From contig NZ_AUMH01000008.1 in the NCBI RefSeq assembly GCF_000430585.1, forward strand, positions 1-64,000: a stretch of 64,000 bases of DNA, in the 5' to 3' direction. This document shows, in pieces, positions 25,059 through 31,631 of this stretch. The notes under the pieces are model-generated. The model worked only from the letters and a program-made list of their open reading frames with translations, had not been told where the DNA came from and did no database searches. Positions within the stretch are counted from its first letter, which is position 1, and each line of letters starts with the position of its first letter. Origin of the DNA: Alicyclobacillus herbarius DSM 13609 (GTDB lineage Bacteria > Bacillota > Bacilli > Alicyclobacillales > Alicyclobacillaceae). A program made the position numbers and the translations under genes.

Positions 25059-27134
25059 ATGACAGCCGAGAAAGCGGCGACGTATCCTGTTTTTCCTACC
25101 ATTTTATATGGCGGAGACTATAACCCAGACCAGTGGCCGGAAGAGGTTTGGGAGGAAGACATGCGCCTGTTCCGGCTGGCCCACCTAAACGTGGCCACGC
25201 TGCCGGTGTTCGGGTGGTCCCGCCTGCAGCCGGCGGAAGATGTGTATGACTTTGCCTGGCTGGATGCGCTCCTTGATAAGCTCTGGGATAACGGCATCCA
25301 TGTCTGTCTGGCGACGGCCACTGCCGCTCAGCCGCCGTGGATGTCGCACAAGTACCCGGAGATGCTCCCGGTGGACAAAAACGGGATGCGGCGGCGGCAC
25401 GGTGGTCGGGTGAACTTCTGTCCCAACAGTCCAGTGTATCGTCACTTCGCCGCCGAATTAGTGCGCCGTCTGGCGGATCGTTATGCCCATCATCCGGCCT
25501 TGATTGCCTGGCACGTGGGTAACGAATACGGAACGTATTGTTATTGCGACGTCTGTGCGGACGTCTGGAGGGACTGGCTGAAGGCGCGCTACAAGACGCT
25601 GGAGGCTTTGAACAAGGCCTGGAACACGGCCTTCTGGGGCCACCTGTATCGCGATTGGGAGGAAATCGTACCGCCCGACAACCGGTCCAATAACATTCCG
25701 CGATCCCGCCCGGCCGATTCTAGCGTTTTGCCTGGGATGTCCCTCGACTACATGCGGTTTATGTCGGAGAGCAGCCTGGCCTGTTATCGGGCCGAGTACG
25801 ACATCCTCAAGTTGTTCACTCCGGACATCCCGGTTACGACCAACCTGATGGGGACGTTCAAGCCGCTCGACTATTTTGCCTGGGCGCCCAATCTGGATAT
25901 CGTTTCCTGGGACAACTATCCGGTCAAAAACGCGGACATGGCGTCGATTGCGTTTCGCCACGACCTGATGCGCGGCTTAAAAAACGGCCAGCCATTCATG
26001 CTCATGGAACAGACACCCAACCAGCAGAACTGGCAGGCGTACAACGCTGTGAAGCGGCCGGGTGAGCTGCGTCGCCTTAGTTGGCAAGCCGTAGCGCACG
26101 GGGCGGACACAGTGATGTACTTCCAGCTGCGTCAGTCCGTCGCCGGATGCGAGAAGTTCCACGGGGCCGTGATTAGCCACGCCGGACATGAACACACCCG
26201 CGTGTTTCGCGACGTGGCGCAGCTGGGCGAGGAGTTGCAAAAGGTTTCGCCGCAGCAGTTGGGACCGGTGCGTCGGGCCGAGGCAGCCATCTTGTTCGAC
26301 TGGGAGAACTGGTGGGCGCTCGAGATGTCGAGTGGGCCAAGCCAGGATTTGCAATACGTCCCCTTCGTGGAGCAGGTGTATCGAGCGTTCTGGCAACAGC
26401 ACCTGCCGGTGGACATTCTTCACCCAGGGCAGGACTTTTCCTCGTACAAGGTCGTGGTGGCGCCCTTGATGTATTTGCTGCACCCCGGCTTCAGCGAGCG
26501 CATCAAGGCCCACGTGCGCGCGGGGGGCACCTTCGTCACCACCTTTTTCAGCGGCCTCGTGGACGAGCACGACCGCGTGTTCACGGGTGGATCGCCCGGG
26601 GAATGGTGGGACCTTTTGGGACTATGGGTCGAGGAAACGGACGCGTTGATGCCGGAGGAGTCCAACCATATGCGGTTTGTGCAGCCGCTGGGGCGATTGC
26701 AGGGTGCCTATCAGTGCGGCCTGTTGTGCGATCTCGTTCACCTTGAGGGGGCTACGGCCTTGGCTGTCTACGGGGAGGATTTTTACGCGGGGATGCCGTG
26801 CCTGACCGAGAACCGTTTCGGAGCGGGGCGCGCGTACTACCTGGCGACCTGCCCAGATGCGGTGGTGTTGACGGAACTGATTCAACACGTATGTGCTGAA
26901 CAAGGGATTCAACCGCTGCTTGACGCCCCGGCTGGGGTGGAGGTCGTGGACCGTCAAGCGGGTGAGCAGGTACACCGGTTTGTCGTCAACCATCGAACGG
27001 AACCGGTCACCCTGAATCTGACTGCGTCTGGAACAGATATCCTGTCCAGCCGTCGTCTGGCGGGAGAGGTTCAGCTGAATCCTGGAGAAGTCTGGGTCGT
27101 GCGCACAGATGCGCCGCCAGTGAGAGGAGAGTGA
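25059..27134 (+). CDS. beta-galactosidase, glycoside hydrolase family 42
   Basis: 691 residues, ATG after AGGAGGGGG. Acid/base Glu156 in HVGNEYG, nucleophile Glu317 in MLMEQTPNQQNW. The metal-binding cysteine cluster CYCDVC follows the acid/base residue, as in thermophilic GH42 enzymes. Domains: barrel (about 15-385), trimerisation domain with a Rossmann-like fold (about 390-605), small beta tail. No signal peptide. The substrate may be beta-galactosides or alpha-L-arabinopyranosides from hemicellulose. The stop overlaps the region before the xylanase start. Confidence 0.94.
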   Translation: MTAEKAATYPVFPTILYGGDYNPDQWPEEVWEEDMRLFRLAHLNVATLPVFGWSRLQPAEDVYDFAWLDALLDKLWDNGIHVCLATATAAQPPWMSHKYPEMLPVDKNGMRRRHGGRVNFCPNSPVYRHFAAELVRRLADRYAHHPALIAWHVGNEYGTYCYCDVCADVWRDWLKARYKTLEALNKAWNTAFWGHLYRDWEEIVPPDNRSNNIPRSRPADSSVLPGMSLDYMRFMSESSLACYRAEYDILKLFTPDIPVTTNLMGTFKPLDYFAWAPNLDIVSWDNYPVKNADMASIAFRHDLMRGLKNGQPFMLMEQTPNQQNWQAYNAVKRPGELRRLSWQAVAHGADTVMYFQLRQSVAGCEKFHGAVISHAGHEHTRVFRDVAQLGEELQKVSPQQLGPVRRAEAAILFDWENWWALEMSSGPSQDLQYVPFVEQVYRAFWQQHLPVDILHPGQDFSSYKVVVAPLMYLLHPGFSERIKAHVRAGGTFVTTFFSGLVDEHDRVFTGGSPGEWWDLLGLWVEETDALMPEESNHMRFVQPLGRLQGAYQCGLLCDLVHLEGATALAVYGEDFYAGMPCLTENRFGAGRAYYLATCPDAVVLTELIQHVCAEQGIQPLLDAPAGVEVVDRQAGEQVHRFVVNHRTEPVTLNLTASGTDILSSRRLAGEVQLNPGEVWVVRTDAPPVRGE

Positions 27135-27139
27135 CCACC

Positions 27140-28153
27140 ATGGCTGAGTCGAAGTACACACCTTTGGCGCCGTCGTTGGCGGAGGCGTTTGCGGCGGACT
27201 TTCGCATCGGCGCTGCGGTGAGCCCGGAGGCGCTGACCCGGCACGGGCAGCTGTTGGCTCACCATTTTAACAGTCTCACCCCGGAAAACCACATGAAATT
27301 CAGCGAGGTGCACCCAGAGCCCAATCGGTATCGGTTTGACGAGGCGGATCGACTGGTGGGGTTCGCGGTCGAACACGGCCTGGTGGTGCGCGGCCACACG
27401 TTGGTCTGGCACAACCAAACCCCGGACTGGGTGTTCGCGGGTGAAGACGGGCAGCCGGTGCGTCCGGATGAATTGCGCCGCAGACTGCGCGAGCACATGG
27501 AGCGGGTCATGGGGCGGTGGCCAAAAGAGGTGTACGCCTGGGACGTGGTCAACGAAGCCGTCGCGGACGGTGGCGGGGATTGGCTGCGGGAGTCTCCTTG
27601 GCGGTCCATCCTCGGCGACGGGTACATCGCCGAGGCGTTTACCATGGCGCACGAGGTCAACCCGGAGGCGCAGCTGTTTTACAACGACTACAACGAATGC
27701 CACCCGGACAAACGGGAGAAAATCTATCGCCTGGTGCGTGGCCTGAAAGAATCTGGGGTGCCGATTCACGGCATCGGGATGCAGGGGCACTGGGGACTGG
27801 ACAGCCCTTCTTTAGACGAGATTCGTCGGACCATCGAACGGTTTGCCAGCTTGAACCTGCGGCTGCAGGTGACGGAGTTGGATGTCTCGTTGTTTGCCTG
27901 GAATGACACAGAGCGCTGGGCCGAGCCGCCGGAGGAGCTCTTGGAGCGGCAGGCCGCTCGGTACGCGGACATCTTTCGGGTGTTTCGAGAATACCGGAAT
28001 GTCATCGATTCGGTGACCTTCTGGGGAACAACGGACGACCTGAGCTGGTTGAACGACTTTCCGGTGCGTGGCCGGGGGAACTGGCCACTGTTGTTTACCG
28101 GGGAGGGCGCACCGAAACCGGCGTTTTGGCGGGTCCTGTCGACGGTGGAGTAG
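27140..28153 (+). CDS. intracellular endo-1,4-beta-xylanase, glycoside hydrolase family 10
   Basis: 337 residues from ATG 27140, with GAGGAGA ten bases upstream. A single GH10 barrel with no signal peptide or carbohydrate-binding module, like the intracellular xylanases of Geobacillus. Acid/base Glu139 in DVVNEAVA, nucleophile Glu246 in VTELDVSLF; substrate-site motifs GHTLVWH and ENHMKFSE. It cuts imported xylo-oligosaccharides. Last gene of the operon before a 500-base gap. Confidence 0.95.
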   Translation: MAESKYTPLAPSLAEAFAADFRIGAAVSPEALTRHGQLLAHHFNSLTPENHMKFSEVHPEPNRYRFDEADRLVGFAVEHGLVVRGHTLVWHNQTPDWVFAGEDGQPVRPDELRRRLREHMERVMGRWPKEVYAWDVVNEAVADGGGDWLRESPWRSILGDGYIAEAFTMAHEVNPEAQLFYNDYNECHPDKREKIYRLVRGLKESGVPIHGIGMQGHWGLDSPSLDEIRRTIERFASLNLRLQVTELDVSLFAWNDTERWAEPPEELLERQAARYADIFRVFREYRNVIDSVTFWGTTDDLSWLNDFPVRGRGNWPLLFTGEGAPKPAFWRVLSTVE

Positions 28154-28193
28154 ACCGTTCAGGCCCCCTTTCCGGACAATCTTTAAAAACCGT

Positions 28194-28223
28194 TTGACAA
28201 CGAAACTTTGCGGGAAATATACT
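28194..28223 (+). promoter_or_regulatory. strong sigma-A promoter in the gap
   Basis: TTGACA (28194-28199), 18-base spacer, TATACT (28218-28223). It is the best promoter match seen in the window. Transcription would begin near 28230 and meet a perfect hairpin only about 40 bases later, so the expected product is a short RNA or an attenuated leader. Confidence 0.65.
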
Positions 28224-28267
28224 GAGGACAGGGAAACGTTATCGGGAGCGGCCTTACCTGAGCCGGA

Positions 28268-28298
28268 GGCCACCTGTGACCGCGAATCACAGGTGGCC
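28268..28298. terminator. perfect 12-bp hairpin, likely bidirectional terminator
   Basis: GGCCACCTGTGA (28268-28279) and TCACAGGTGGCC (28287-28298) around a 7-base loop. It lies 115 bases beyond the xylanase stop on the plus strand and 17 bases beyond the small ORF stop on the minus strand. T-tracts are weak on both sides. Confidence 0.65.
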
Positions 28299-28314
28299 TT
28301 GCCATTCCTCCGAC

Positions 28315-28410
28315 TTAGCTACGTCTCTTACACTCGATCCAGTCGAGGTACAGGCGGGCCAAGGCACCAGCCGCTTGTACAAGAGCACGTGCTGCTTGTA
28401 TCCATCCCAT
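28315..28410 (-). CDS. small amphipathic peptide, 31 residues, unrecognised
   Basis: ATG 28410 is preceded by AGGAGGTGAGG, a nine-base match to the anti-Shine-Dalgarno sequence at about ten bases, one of the best ribosome sites in the window. The peptide starts MGWIQAARALVQAAGALARL, continues with an aromatic-acidic stretch around LDWIE, and ends in a basic CKRRS. It forms one long helix with an Ala/Leu face, an Arg/Gln face and a charged tail, like small membrane-active or type I toxin peptides. No convincing minus-strand promoter was found (TAGAAT at 28488-28483 only). A terminator-like hairpin follows the stop. Confidence 0.6.
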   Translation of the reverse strand: MGWIQAARALVQAAGALARLYLDWIECKRRS

Positions 28411-28546
28411 GCGCACCTCACCTCCTCGCCGATGATCTCGGCTTCGGCAAGGCACGCGCACGATTCCCTGTCCTCGCCTTTCATTCTATCAAAATTCCCC
28501 TTCAAGCTAGTAGCTCAAAAAGTCTGTCAAGCCCCCTTTTTCCCAC

Positions 28547-28575
28547 TTGACTTGCATGCAAGTATACAATAGACT
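28547..28575 (+). promoter_or_regulatory. promoter with GntR-type operator for the uronate operon
   Basis: TTGACT (28547-28552), 17 bases, TAGACT (28570-28575), 75 bases before the first dehydrogenase. Between the boxes lies the perfect 14-base palindrome ACTTGCATGCAAGT (28550-28563), which has the CTTGnnnnCAAG form common for FCD-type GntR regulators. The GntR gene in this operon (30927) is the obvious candidate to bind it. Confidence 0.65.
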
Positions 28576-28649
28576 TGGCTGTGAAAGGATTCGCTCTCTT
28601 CGACGGTTTGTGAGAGGCTCGACTTTACATAGAACAGGGAGGCGTAGTC

Positions 28650-29813
28650 ATGACCAAGGTGGCCGTAATCGGCGCTGGCGCGATATCGAGCAGTCACATT
28701 GAGGCGTACCTAACGTTTCCAGATCGGGTACAGATTGTCGCCGTGGCGGATGTGTATCCAGAGAAGGCGGAACAGCAGATTTTCCGTTACCACCTGACGG
28801 CACGCGCGCTTAAAGACTACCAGGACCTTTTGGACGATCCGGAGATTCAACTGGTTTCTGTCTGCACCCCGCCGGGGACACACAAGGAGATCACCTGTGC
28901 GTGTTTGAAGGCGGGCAAGCATGTCCTGGTCGAAAAGCCCATGGCCGCGTCCCTGGCCGAGTGTGACGAGATGATTCGCGCTGCGGACGAATCGGGGAAG
29001 GTGTTGTCGGTGGTGGCGCAAAACCGCTTCCGCACGCCGATGATGAAGCTTAAGCAGGTGCTGGAGGCCGGTGTGGCTGGCAAGGTCCTACATGCCCAGG
29101 TGGACTCGCACTGGTGGCGGGGGCACAGCTACTACGATTTGTGGTGGCGCGGCACATGGGCCAGTGAAGGCGGCGGTTGCACCCTGAATCACGCGGTCCA
29201 CCACATCGACGCCCTGCAGTGGATGATGGGCATGCCGACGCAGGTCACCGCCGTCATGGCAAACCTCGCCCACGACAACGCGGAAGTCGAGGACATCTCG
29301 CTGGCACTCTTGCGTTTTGGAGACGGGGCGTTGGCTCAAATCACCAGCTCGGTCGTCCACCACGGTCAGGAGCAGCAGCTCGTGTTTCAGACCGAAAAGG
29401 CGATGGTGGCGATGCCCTGGCGGTTGTATGCCTCGGTTTCGCGTGAAAACGGATTCCCTGAGCGCGCGAGCGACGTCGAGGCGGAGATTCAATCGTTCTA
29501 CGATTCTCTGCCCGAGGTTCGCTACGAGGCGCACACGGGTCAGATTGACAACGTTCTGACCGCGATTGAAACCGGTCAGCCGGTCCTAATTGATGGTATG
29601 CAGGGACGGCGGACGCTGGAGTTGATTACCGCCATCTACAAATCGGCCATTACCAGCCAGCCGGTCAGTCTGCCCCTTACCCAAGACGATGAGTTCTATA
29701 CCCGCGACGGGCTGTTGGCGCGGGCGCCTCACTTCTACGAAAAGACCAGTTCGGTGGTTTCGTTTGCGGATAACGAGATTACGACCAGTGGGACCTACGG
29801 GCGCAACGCGTAA
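28650..29813 (+). CDS. Gfo/Idh/MocA-family oxidoreductase
   Basis: 387 residues; ATG after AGGGAGG. N-terminal Rossmann fold VAVIGAGAISSSH, catalytic Lys in VLVEKPMA, C-terminal substrate domain with NHAVHHIDALQWM, where His/Asp complete the site. Members oxidise or reduce sugars and cyclitols with NAD(P). First gene of an operon for a sugar acid; the second Gfo/Idh gene follows 34 bases on. The substrate is not predictable from sequence. Confidence 0.9.
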   Translation: MTKVAVIGAGAISSSHIEAYLTFPDRVQIVAVADVYPEKAEQQIFRYHLTARALKDYQDLLDDPEIQLVSVCTPPGTHKEITCACLKAGKHVLVEKPMAASLAECDEMIRAADESGKVLSVVAQNRFRTPMMKLKQVLEAGVAGKVLHAQVDSHWWRGHSYYDLWWRGTWASEGGGCTLNHAVHHIDALQWMMGMPTQVTAVMANLAHDNAEVEDISLALLRFGDGALAQITSSVVHHGQEQQLVFQTEKAMVAMPWRLYASVSRENGFPERASDVEAEIQSFYDSLPEVRYEAHTGQIDNVLTAIETGQPVLIDGMQGRRTLELITAIYKSAITSQPVSLPLTQDDEFYTRDGLLARAPHFYEKTSSVVSFADNEITTSGTYGRNA

Positions 29814-29847
29814 GGTTTCGGGCATGCATCTCAAGGAGGCGTTAAGA

Positions 29848-30930
29848 GTGTCAAAAGCGGACGGCATGAACTATGCCCCCAAAGGCAAACCCAACCCGGT
29901 GTGCAACAAAGTTGAATTTGTGTTTGCCGCCGTGGGGCTCGATCACGGCCACATCTATGGGATGTGCAATGGCCTCATCGAGGCAGGCGGGGAACTGAAG
30001 TGGGTGTACGACGAGGATGAGAGCAAGGTTGAGGCGTTCCAGCGCAATTACCCATCAGCCCGAGCGGCCCGGTCTCTGCAAGAGGTTTTGCAGGATCCGG
30101 AGGTGCACCTGGTGGCGAGCGCCAAGGTCCCGGCTGACCGGGCCCCCTTGGGCATTCAGGTGATGAACCACGGCAAGGACTATTTCGTCGACAAACCGCC
30201 GTTAACCACCCTGGAACAGGTGCAGCGGGTGCGTGATACGGTGGCCAAGACCGGGCGCAAATACGCGGTGTATTACAGCGAGCGCCTGCACGTGGAGAGT
30301 GCGGTGTTTGCTGGGCAGTTGATTCAAGACGGCGCCATCGGCCGGGTGGTGCAGGTGATAGGCATGGGGCCTCATCGCATTGGGCTTAGCGGCCGGCCCG
30401 ATTGGTTCTTCAAACCCGAGAGATACGGTGGAATTCTGTGTGACATTGGGAGCCACCAGATTGAACAAATCCTGTTTTACACCGGCTGTGATGACGCCAC
30501 CATCACGCAAAGCCGCATTGCCAACTACCGGTACAAGGAGTATCCGGAGTTTCAAGACTTTGGCGACTGTCAGCTGAATCTGGCCAACGGGGCCGCCGGC
30601 TACTTCCGGGTTGATTGGTTTACGCCTGACGGCCTTCGTACCTGGGGCGATGGCCGGACATTCATTCTCGGTACCCACGGGTACATTGAGTTGCGCAAGT
30701 ACATCGACATCGGCCGCGACGAACAGGGTGATCACGTCTACTTGGTCAACGACGAAGGTGAATATCACATCCCGGTATCGGGACGGGTGGGATACCCGTT
30801 TTTCGGGGATTTGATTCTCGACTGTTTGGAGCGGACGGAAAGGGCTATGACCCAGGAACACGCCCTCAAGGCTGCGGAACTGGCGGTGCTCGCCCAACGC
30901 CAGGCAGTCCGGCTGGAGGGGGCACAGTGA
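29848..30930 (+). CDS. Gfo/Idh/MocA-family oxidoreductase, second copy
   Basis: 360 residues from GTG 29848, with AAGGAGG eight bases upstream; the longer open frame overlaps the previous gene and is not used. VFAAVGLDHGHIYGMCNGL replaces the usual glycine-rich loop, so the nucleotide site is atypical. The catalytic-lysine motif is VDKPPL rather than EKP, and CDIGSHQIEQILFY gives the usual His. Clearly not a duplicate of its neighbour: they differ along the whole length. Stop overlaps the GntR start (GTGA). Confidence 0.87.
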   Translation: MSKADGMNYAPKGKPNPVCNKVEFVFAAVGLDHGHIYGMCNGLIEAGGELKWVYDEDESKVEAFQRNYPSARAARSLQEVLQDPEVHLVASAKVPADRAPLGIQVMNHGKDYFVDKPPLTTLEQVQRVRDTVAKTGRKYAVYYSERLHVESAVFAGQLIQDGAIGRVVQVIGMGPHRIGLSGRPDWFFKPERYGGILCDIGSHQIEQILFYTGCDDATITQSRIANYRYKEYPEFQDFGDCQLNLANGAAGYFRVDWFTPDGLRTWGDGRTFILGTHGYIELRKYIDIGRDEQGDHVYLVNDEGEYHIPVSGRVGYPFFGDLILDCLERTERAMTQEHALKAAELAVLAQRQAVRLEGAQ

Positions 30931-31631
30931 CCAATCCGTTTGGACTTGAGACGGATCGGCGTTCGCTCAGCGAGCAGGCGTATGAGGCCATCCGTGACAT
31001 GATTCTGTCGCTGCGCCTAGAACCTGGGCGCACGGTGTACGAAAATGAGCTGGCCAACCTGCTGAGCATGAGCCGGACGCCCATCCGTGAGGCGGTGCGC
31101 ACCCTGCTGGTGGAAGAGCTGATGGAGGTTCTGCCCCAGCGCGGGATGAAGGTTGCGCTTATTTCCGAGAAAAAGGTGGAGGAGGCACGCTTCGTCCGCG
31201 AGAGTTTGGAGGTCAGTGCACTGCGCGCAGCGATGGCGCGCTGGCAGAGCGACGCCACCAGGCGTGCCCAATGGACCCACGAGGTGGAGGAGGCCATCAC
31301 CGCCCAACGCCAGGCGGCGGACGCGGGGGACGTACTCGCTTTTCTCGAAGCCGATGAGGCGTTCCACAGGGTGCTGATGGCTGCCGCCGACAACCGAACC
31401 CTCGTCTCCATCGTGACGCAGATGCGCGCGCACCTGAACCGGGTTCGCACCCTCTCCTTGCAGGAGTTGCAAAATGTGTCGACACTGATTGAGGAGCATG
31501 AACAGTTGGTGTCCGTGTTGGCGGCAGGAGATGAGGAGCAGGCGGTCAGCCTGTTGACGCGCCACCTGCGCCGGCTCAAACAGGACGTTGCGGTCGTGCG
31601 GAGTCAATATCCTCAATACTTTCGAGACTAA
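30927..31631 (+). CDS. GntR-family regulator, FCD (FadR) subfamily
   Basis: 234 residues; GTG overlaps the preceding stop and follows GGAGGGGG. Winged HTH (about 12-75, LANLLSMSRTPIREAVRTLL), then an all-helical FCD ligand domain with the metal/ligand histidines in EADEAFHRVLM and ADNRTL. FCD members often sense sugar acids such as uronates. Being inside the operon, with a palindrome in its promoter, it is probably an autoregulated repressor of these genes. Confidence 0.92.
   Translation: MTNPFGLETDRRSLSEQAYEAIRDMILSLRLEPGRTVYENELANLLSMSRTPIREAVRTLLVEELMEVLPQRGMKVALISEKKVEEARFVRESLEVSALRAAMARWQSDATRRAQWTHEVEEAITAQRQAADAGDVLAFLEADEAFHRVLMAAADNRTLVSIVTQMRAHLNRVRTLSLQELQNVSTLIEEHEQLVSVLAAGDEEQAVSLLTRHLRRLKQDVAVVRSQYPQYFRD

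Follow-up and report, generated by a model that had tools for sequence, protein, structure and literature searches.

A probable type I toxin-antitoxin cassette from an unnamed family in Alicyclobacillus herbarius

In Alicyclobacillus herbarius, a cassette between a GH10 glycosidase gene and a Gfo/Idh/MocA oxidoreductase gene contains a short open reading frame on the minus strand, facing a near-consensus promoter on the plus strand. Do these form a toxin gene and its antisense antitoxin, or do they serve another purpose? The original prediction, made within the window (the whole stretch of 64,000 nucleotides that was analyzed), was of a candidate type I toxin-antitoxin or peptide/antisense RNA locus and, as far as can be read from the sequences, 19 complete cassettes keep all parts of this layout together. 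The sequences support the parts of the cassette, their conservation, the coevolving pairing and the selection on the reading frame. We consider it quite likely that this is a type I toxin-antitoxin cassette belonging to an as yet unnamed family; it would be transcribed and would encode a toxin. The near-consensus promoter, the 31-codon frame with its Shine-Dalgarno sequence and the perfect 12-bp hairpin are all present as first described, and the cassette extends beyond the span originally given, up to about 28491, adding the sense promoter and the leader:

28194-28199 (TTGACA) and 28218-28223 (TATACT), plus strand: antisense promoter TTGACA-18-TATACT, spacer of 18, 11 of 12 matches
28224..28239, minus strand: 3' arm of the terminal inverted repeat, to which the 5' end of the antisense RNA is complementary
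28230..28305, plus strand: putative antitoxin, an antisense RNA with a predicted length of about 75 nt, its ends placed from the promoter and terminator positions
28248..28266, minus strand: segment of the 3' tail that is complementary to the anti-Shine-Dalgarno segment in the leader (long-distance helix H2)
28268..28298, plus strand: perfect 12-bp hairpin, putative terminator of the antisense RNA
28410..28318, stop codon 28317..28315, minus strand: 31-codon ATG reading frame MGWIQAARALVQAAGALARLYLDWIECKRRS, putative toxin
28416..28425, minus strand: Shine-Dalgarno sequence GGAGGTGAGG, near-invariant columns in alignments A3 and A5
28446..28455, minus strand: anti-Shine-Dalgarno segment of the leader, GTGCCTTGCC
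28460..28475, minus strand: 5' arm of the terminal inverted repeat, GAGGACAGGGAATCGT; inferred mRNA 5' end near 28476
28483..28491, minus strand: extended −10 of the peptide mRNA promoter, TGATAGAAT, without a good −35

The order of the parts is constant in 19 of 19 complete cassettes: sense −10, repeat, anti-Shine-Dalgarno, Shine-Dalgarno, reading frame, antisense terminator, tail, repeat and antisense promoter. The original prediction had proposed a search for homologues, and the peptide proves to be conserved both in related genomes and in independent contexts. It is single-copy in its own genome, and its homologues (E 1e-7 to 1e-19) are from the same genus, from two further genera in its family and from the Thermoactinomycetaceae, where the cassette is multi-copy and Paludifilum halophilum and Kroppenstedtia guangzhouensis are among the carriers; several genomes have up to four copies. 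In G011, from another genus, the peptide is 71% identical, and the 300 nt of DNA around it are 80% identical. A profile search found the peptide in G002, G003 and G018, plus two further families in the class sample, and the window's own genome was the sole match in the 398-genome phylum sample, so the profile is specific. The cassette is present with preserved RNA structure in about 20 places, in two groups of bacilli. A covariance model limited to the leader (R1; match in the window at 28410-28475), which contains no peptide information, recovers the window copy (E 6e-12) and known cassettes, as well as new loci, of which L111 (MAWQDVAGLLTGVAVLAVLTQVIRLFLDWKQSGMK) and L116 encode family-type peptides absent from the model, and L108, L110, L123 and L124 have truncated or shifted reading frames. 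Searches of plasmids and phages with two peptides, and of plasmids with the cassette DNA, gave no match. Together with L120, these four are copies with dead or shifted frames; in L110, the frame is disrupted and the antisense promoter side is retained. L011 and L013 are divergent cassettes without a recognisable antisense promoter, and seem to require a CTG start. In L011 and especially L013, a T-run is located just past the 3' repeat arm, which suggests that their mRNA may end there.

On the plus strand, TTGACA-18-TATACT is the top-scoring sigma-70 site within 26000-31000. An antisense −10 (TATAAT, TATACT or TACAAT) is found at the same place in 19/19 complete cassettes, often with a TTGA −35. 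On the minus strand, an extended −10 (TGNTANNNT) lies 12-18 nt upstream of the repeat arm in 17 of these 19, and the transcription start is placed within or just upstream of this arm. By its sequence, the antisense promoter appears to be the stronger of the two, as one would expect if it drives an antitoxin. Across cassettes, the antisense RNA is predicted to be about 75-90 nt long and to span the 3' untranslated region of the mRNA; its promoter, its terminator and the 3' overlap of the predicted transcripts are conserved in the 19 complete cassettes. The hairpin had been described as a terminator shared by both transcripts. In most members, the antisense strand has a T-run after it (TTTT in most relatives), while the sense strand has 0-1 T there in nearly all members; this part of the description therefore falls, as the hairpin would end the antisense RNA only. 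The type I reading is weakened by the weak T-run after the antisense hairpin of the window copy (TTGCCATT), by the missing antisense promoters and apparent CTG starts of L011 and L013 and by the sense strand, for which no terminator was identified in the cassette and the position of the mRNA 3' end is assumed. Rfam gave no match at gathering score, either in the window or in nine relatives' cassettes, and the weak matches in the window are at chance level.

The Shine-Dalgarno sequence has a predicted unpaired probability of 0-0.13 in the eight real leaders listed, compared to 0.45 for shuffled leaders, and in fold models it is mostly paired under either of two leader pairings. The models predict a primary mRNA with an occluded Shine-Dalgarno sequence; a non-translatable, closed primary transcript of this kind is a hallmark of type I loci (PMC6733600). 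A leader reading frame coupled to the toxin, as in hok, was not seen in the cassette. The 16-nt terminal inverted repeat (28460-28475 and 28224-28239) is predicted to close the mRNA. Its arms pair with −24.0 kcal/mol on average with their own partner and −14.6 kcal/mol when swapped, and 0 of 100000 permutations, which assume independent members though the sequences are related, reached the observed sum; for the leader-tail duplex the values are −35.1 and −26.1 kcal/mol, with 0 of 50000 permutations as good, and the local anti-Shine-Dalgarno/Shine-Dalgarno helix gives a weaker signal (−22.5 versus −19.2, p = 0.0001). The outcome was unchanged when only 12 or 13 divergent representatives were used. 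The leader-tail helix also emerges independently in an RNAalifold consensus, as does the antisense terminator, and compensatory changes are seen there. Judged by this pairing, the repeat arms and the leader-tail helix coevolve.

By analogy, the mechanism is most likely similar to that of bsrG/SR4, with a duplex at the 3' end, decay by RNase III and lasting occlusion of the Shine-Dalgarno sequence. The mRNA from the minus strand would be structured and would encode an amphipathic helix of 31 residues with a basic tail, which probably acts on the membrane. This mRNA would be closed from birth, its leader hairpin masking the Shine-Dalgarno sequence and its 5' and 3' ends pairing via the terminal repeat. 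The stronger convergent promoter would produce a short antisense RNA, perfectly complementary to the 3' tail of the mRNA, and the resulting duplex would expose the mRNA to RNase III, with the Shine-Dalgarno sequence kept hidden. Transcription, toxicity, neutralisation and RNase III cleavage are the steps we infer. The type I reading is supported by its match to published hallmarks, namely the closed primary transcript with occluded Shine-Dalgarno sequence and the antisense pairing at the mRNA 3' end, the latter known from bsrG/SR4 and txpA/RatA of Bacillus subtilis (PMC6562991).

The locus forms a long imperfect inverted repeat, and the mRNA and the antisense RNA would therefore start nearly alike, via the terminal repeat. 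The antitoxin might then mimic the toxin mRNA's own leader, forming a bistable RNA switch of opposite sense to aapA and hok, a mechanism we consider doubtful. The two RNAs, with nearly the same 5' sequence, would compete for the mRNA 3' tail; pairing of the tail would free the Shine-Dalgarno sequence from its local hairpin, and the antisense RNA would release the leader to mask it. When the tail was blocked in fold models, a clear shift to the Shine-Dalgarno hairpin was obtained in 4 of the 19 mRNAs (L010, L068, L069 and L087), and the switch was not adopted as the main mechanism, as tail blocking clearly raises occlusion in only these.

A type I cassette should contain a gene for a small hydrophobic or amphipathic peptide, and such a gene is present. 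The family peptides are conserved, 28-38 amino acids long and helix-forming, with a net charge of +1 to +6. AlphaFold models the window peptide as one helix (residues 2-30, pLDDT 90), although for a 31-mer predicted from a single sequence this shows little beyond helicity. Substitutions favour the third codon position (422, versus 276 and 171 elsewhere) and pN/pS is 0.15-0.64 among the listed homologue pairs; by this pattern, the reading frame is under purifying selection. Searching 17 members with hmmscan against Pfam and NCBIfam, with a cutoff as permissive as E 1, revealed no catalogued type I toxin family (BsrG/TxpA, Fst/Ldr, Hok, TisB and others), and PHROG gave chance-level matches only. 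Membership of the type I class is assigned from layout and RNA logic, outside every catalogued toxin family searched. The toxin reading is weakened by the lower hydrophobicity of the window peptide compared to the Thermoactinomycetaceae peptides (Kyte-Doolittle value over 18 residues 0.98, versus 2.26 for L064). A peptide that is amphipathic and not strongly hydrophobic, together with evidence that all concerns control and conservation and none of it toxicity, could also suit a small non-toxic peptide under antisense control, with a membrane or signalling role, which tunes a membrane protein or a stress response. We regard this as unlikely, since sporadic presence, multiple copies, dead reading frames and diverse neighbours are more typical of an addiction-type or selfish cassette than of a housekeeping regulator, and the occlusion of the Shine-Dalgarno sequence is unusually tight.

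The G011 cassette is located between genes for a germination-type membrane protein and an AAA ATPase (identities read from the reading frames). Both genes are also present in its congeners G028 and G022, where the matching stretches lie only 54-63 nt apart, against about 450-490 in G011, and the empty site in a congener is 91% identical apart from the cassette. The cassette is therefore acquired or lost as a unit. The original prediction had made its case depend on conservation in close relatives that keep the flanking genes: beside the flanking genes of this one homologous site the cassette is absent, elsewhere it is conserved, and we do not take the absence in congeners as refuting, since it is explained by the acquisition or loss of a cassette that other sites preserve. 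Terminal inverted repeats, empty sites and multiple copies would also be expected of a MITE-like small mobile DNA element, with the repeats as transposon ends and the peptide incidental. This is very improbable, given that the repeats sit inside the promoters, at the transcription starts, that the reading frame is under selection and that no target-site duplication is evident at the empty site (G028 and G022 compared with G011). The transposon reading was rejected on the coevolution of the repeat arms, which diverge between copies yet stay mutually complementary, even in one genome (L065 and L082 in G381), the opposite of recognition by one transposase.

That a chance frame lies in a GC-rich intergenic region beside the promoter and terminator of a glycosidase operon, as the weak T-run and the position of the antisense promoter directly 3' of the GH10 gene might suggest, is the least probable reading of all and is already refuted by homologues in other genomes and contexts, with the coevolution and the fold z-score also against it. 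The recurrence of reading frame, leader, promoters and hairpin in independent genomic contexts and the folding of the 281-nt minus-strand RNA (z = −6.1 versus shuffles) argue that the cassette is not due to chance; as the plus strand also folds far better than shuffled sequences, folding by itself is not decisive.

The likeness to txpA/RatA and bsrG/SR4 that was originally proposed holds for layout and not for sequence. Shared are the convergent genes, the antisense pairing at the 3' end and a small membrane-type peptide with a charged tail, and with bsrG also the sequestering of the Shine-Dalgarno sequence in a hairpin; in contrast, no toxin homology is detectable in Pfam, NCBIfam or Rfam, and the antisense RNA of the cassette is only about 75-90 nt long. 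In aapA/IsoA of Helicobacter, the mRNA 3' end supplies an anti-Shine-Dalgarno sequence that traps the Shine-Dalgarno sequence in a long-distance fold (PMC6733600). The cassette resembles it in the local occluding hairpin, the 5'-3' long-distance closure and the presence of several copies per genome, but its 3' tail pairs with the leader anti-Shine-Dalgarno segment and is itself the antisense target. The hok mRNA folds back 5' to 3' as well; Sok covers its 5' region, whereas the antisense RNA of the cassette covers the 3' untranslated region. A literature search returned no type I system from either of the two bacillar families. The cassette would add a new toxin family with a conserved RNA architecture in both, and 19 natural variants for the study of toxin mRNA silencing. 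Small reading frames like these lie outside the coverage of the family libraries searched (Pfam, NCBIfam, PHROG and Rfam).

A second group of small reading frames (MQQAAAIATLISAIASL..., L088-L090; L071 and L076 are similar) lacks the repeat and was set aside. In several of its members (L088-L090), a sense terminator immediately follows the frame, and the group (MQQAAAIATLISAIASLIVAIVGAIRLYLEYKRN and similar) is possibly a distinct small membrane protein family. L058, a pattern match in a gammaproteobacterial MAG, sits in a longer frame that lacks the family signature, and we regarded it as a chance match.

Two stretches bordering the cassette also recur. Window positions 28157-28188, a stretch of 32 nt that follows the GH10 stop codon, have an 88% match in an unrelated place of G018, on the opposite strand. 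Upstream of the Gfo/Idh/MocA gene, TTGACTTGCATGCAAGTATACAATAG (28546-28571) is identical in G001 at 26 of 26 positions and is also found inside a conserved stretch of G002. The palindrome TTGCATGCAA overlaps a promoter there and looks like an operator, perhaps one bound by the GntR/FCD regulator encoded at 30927-31631.
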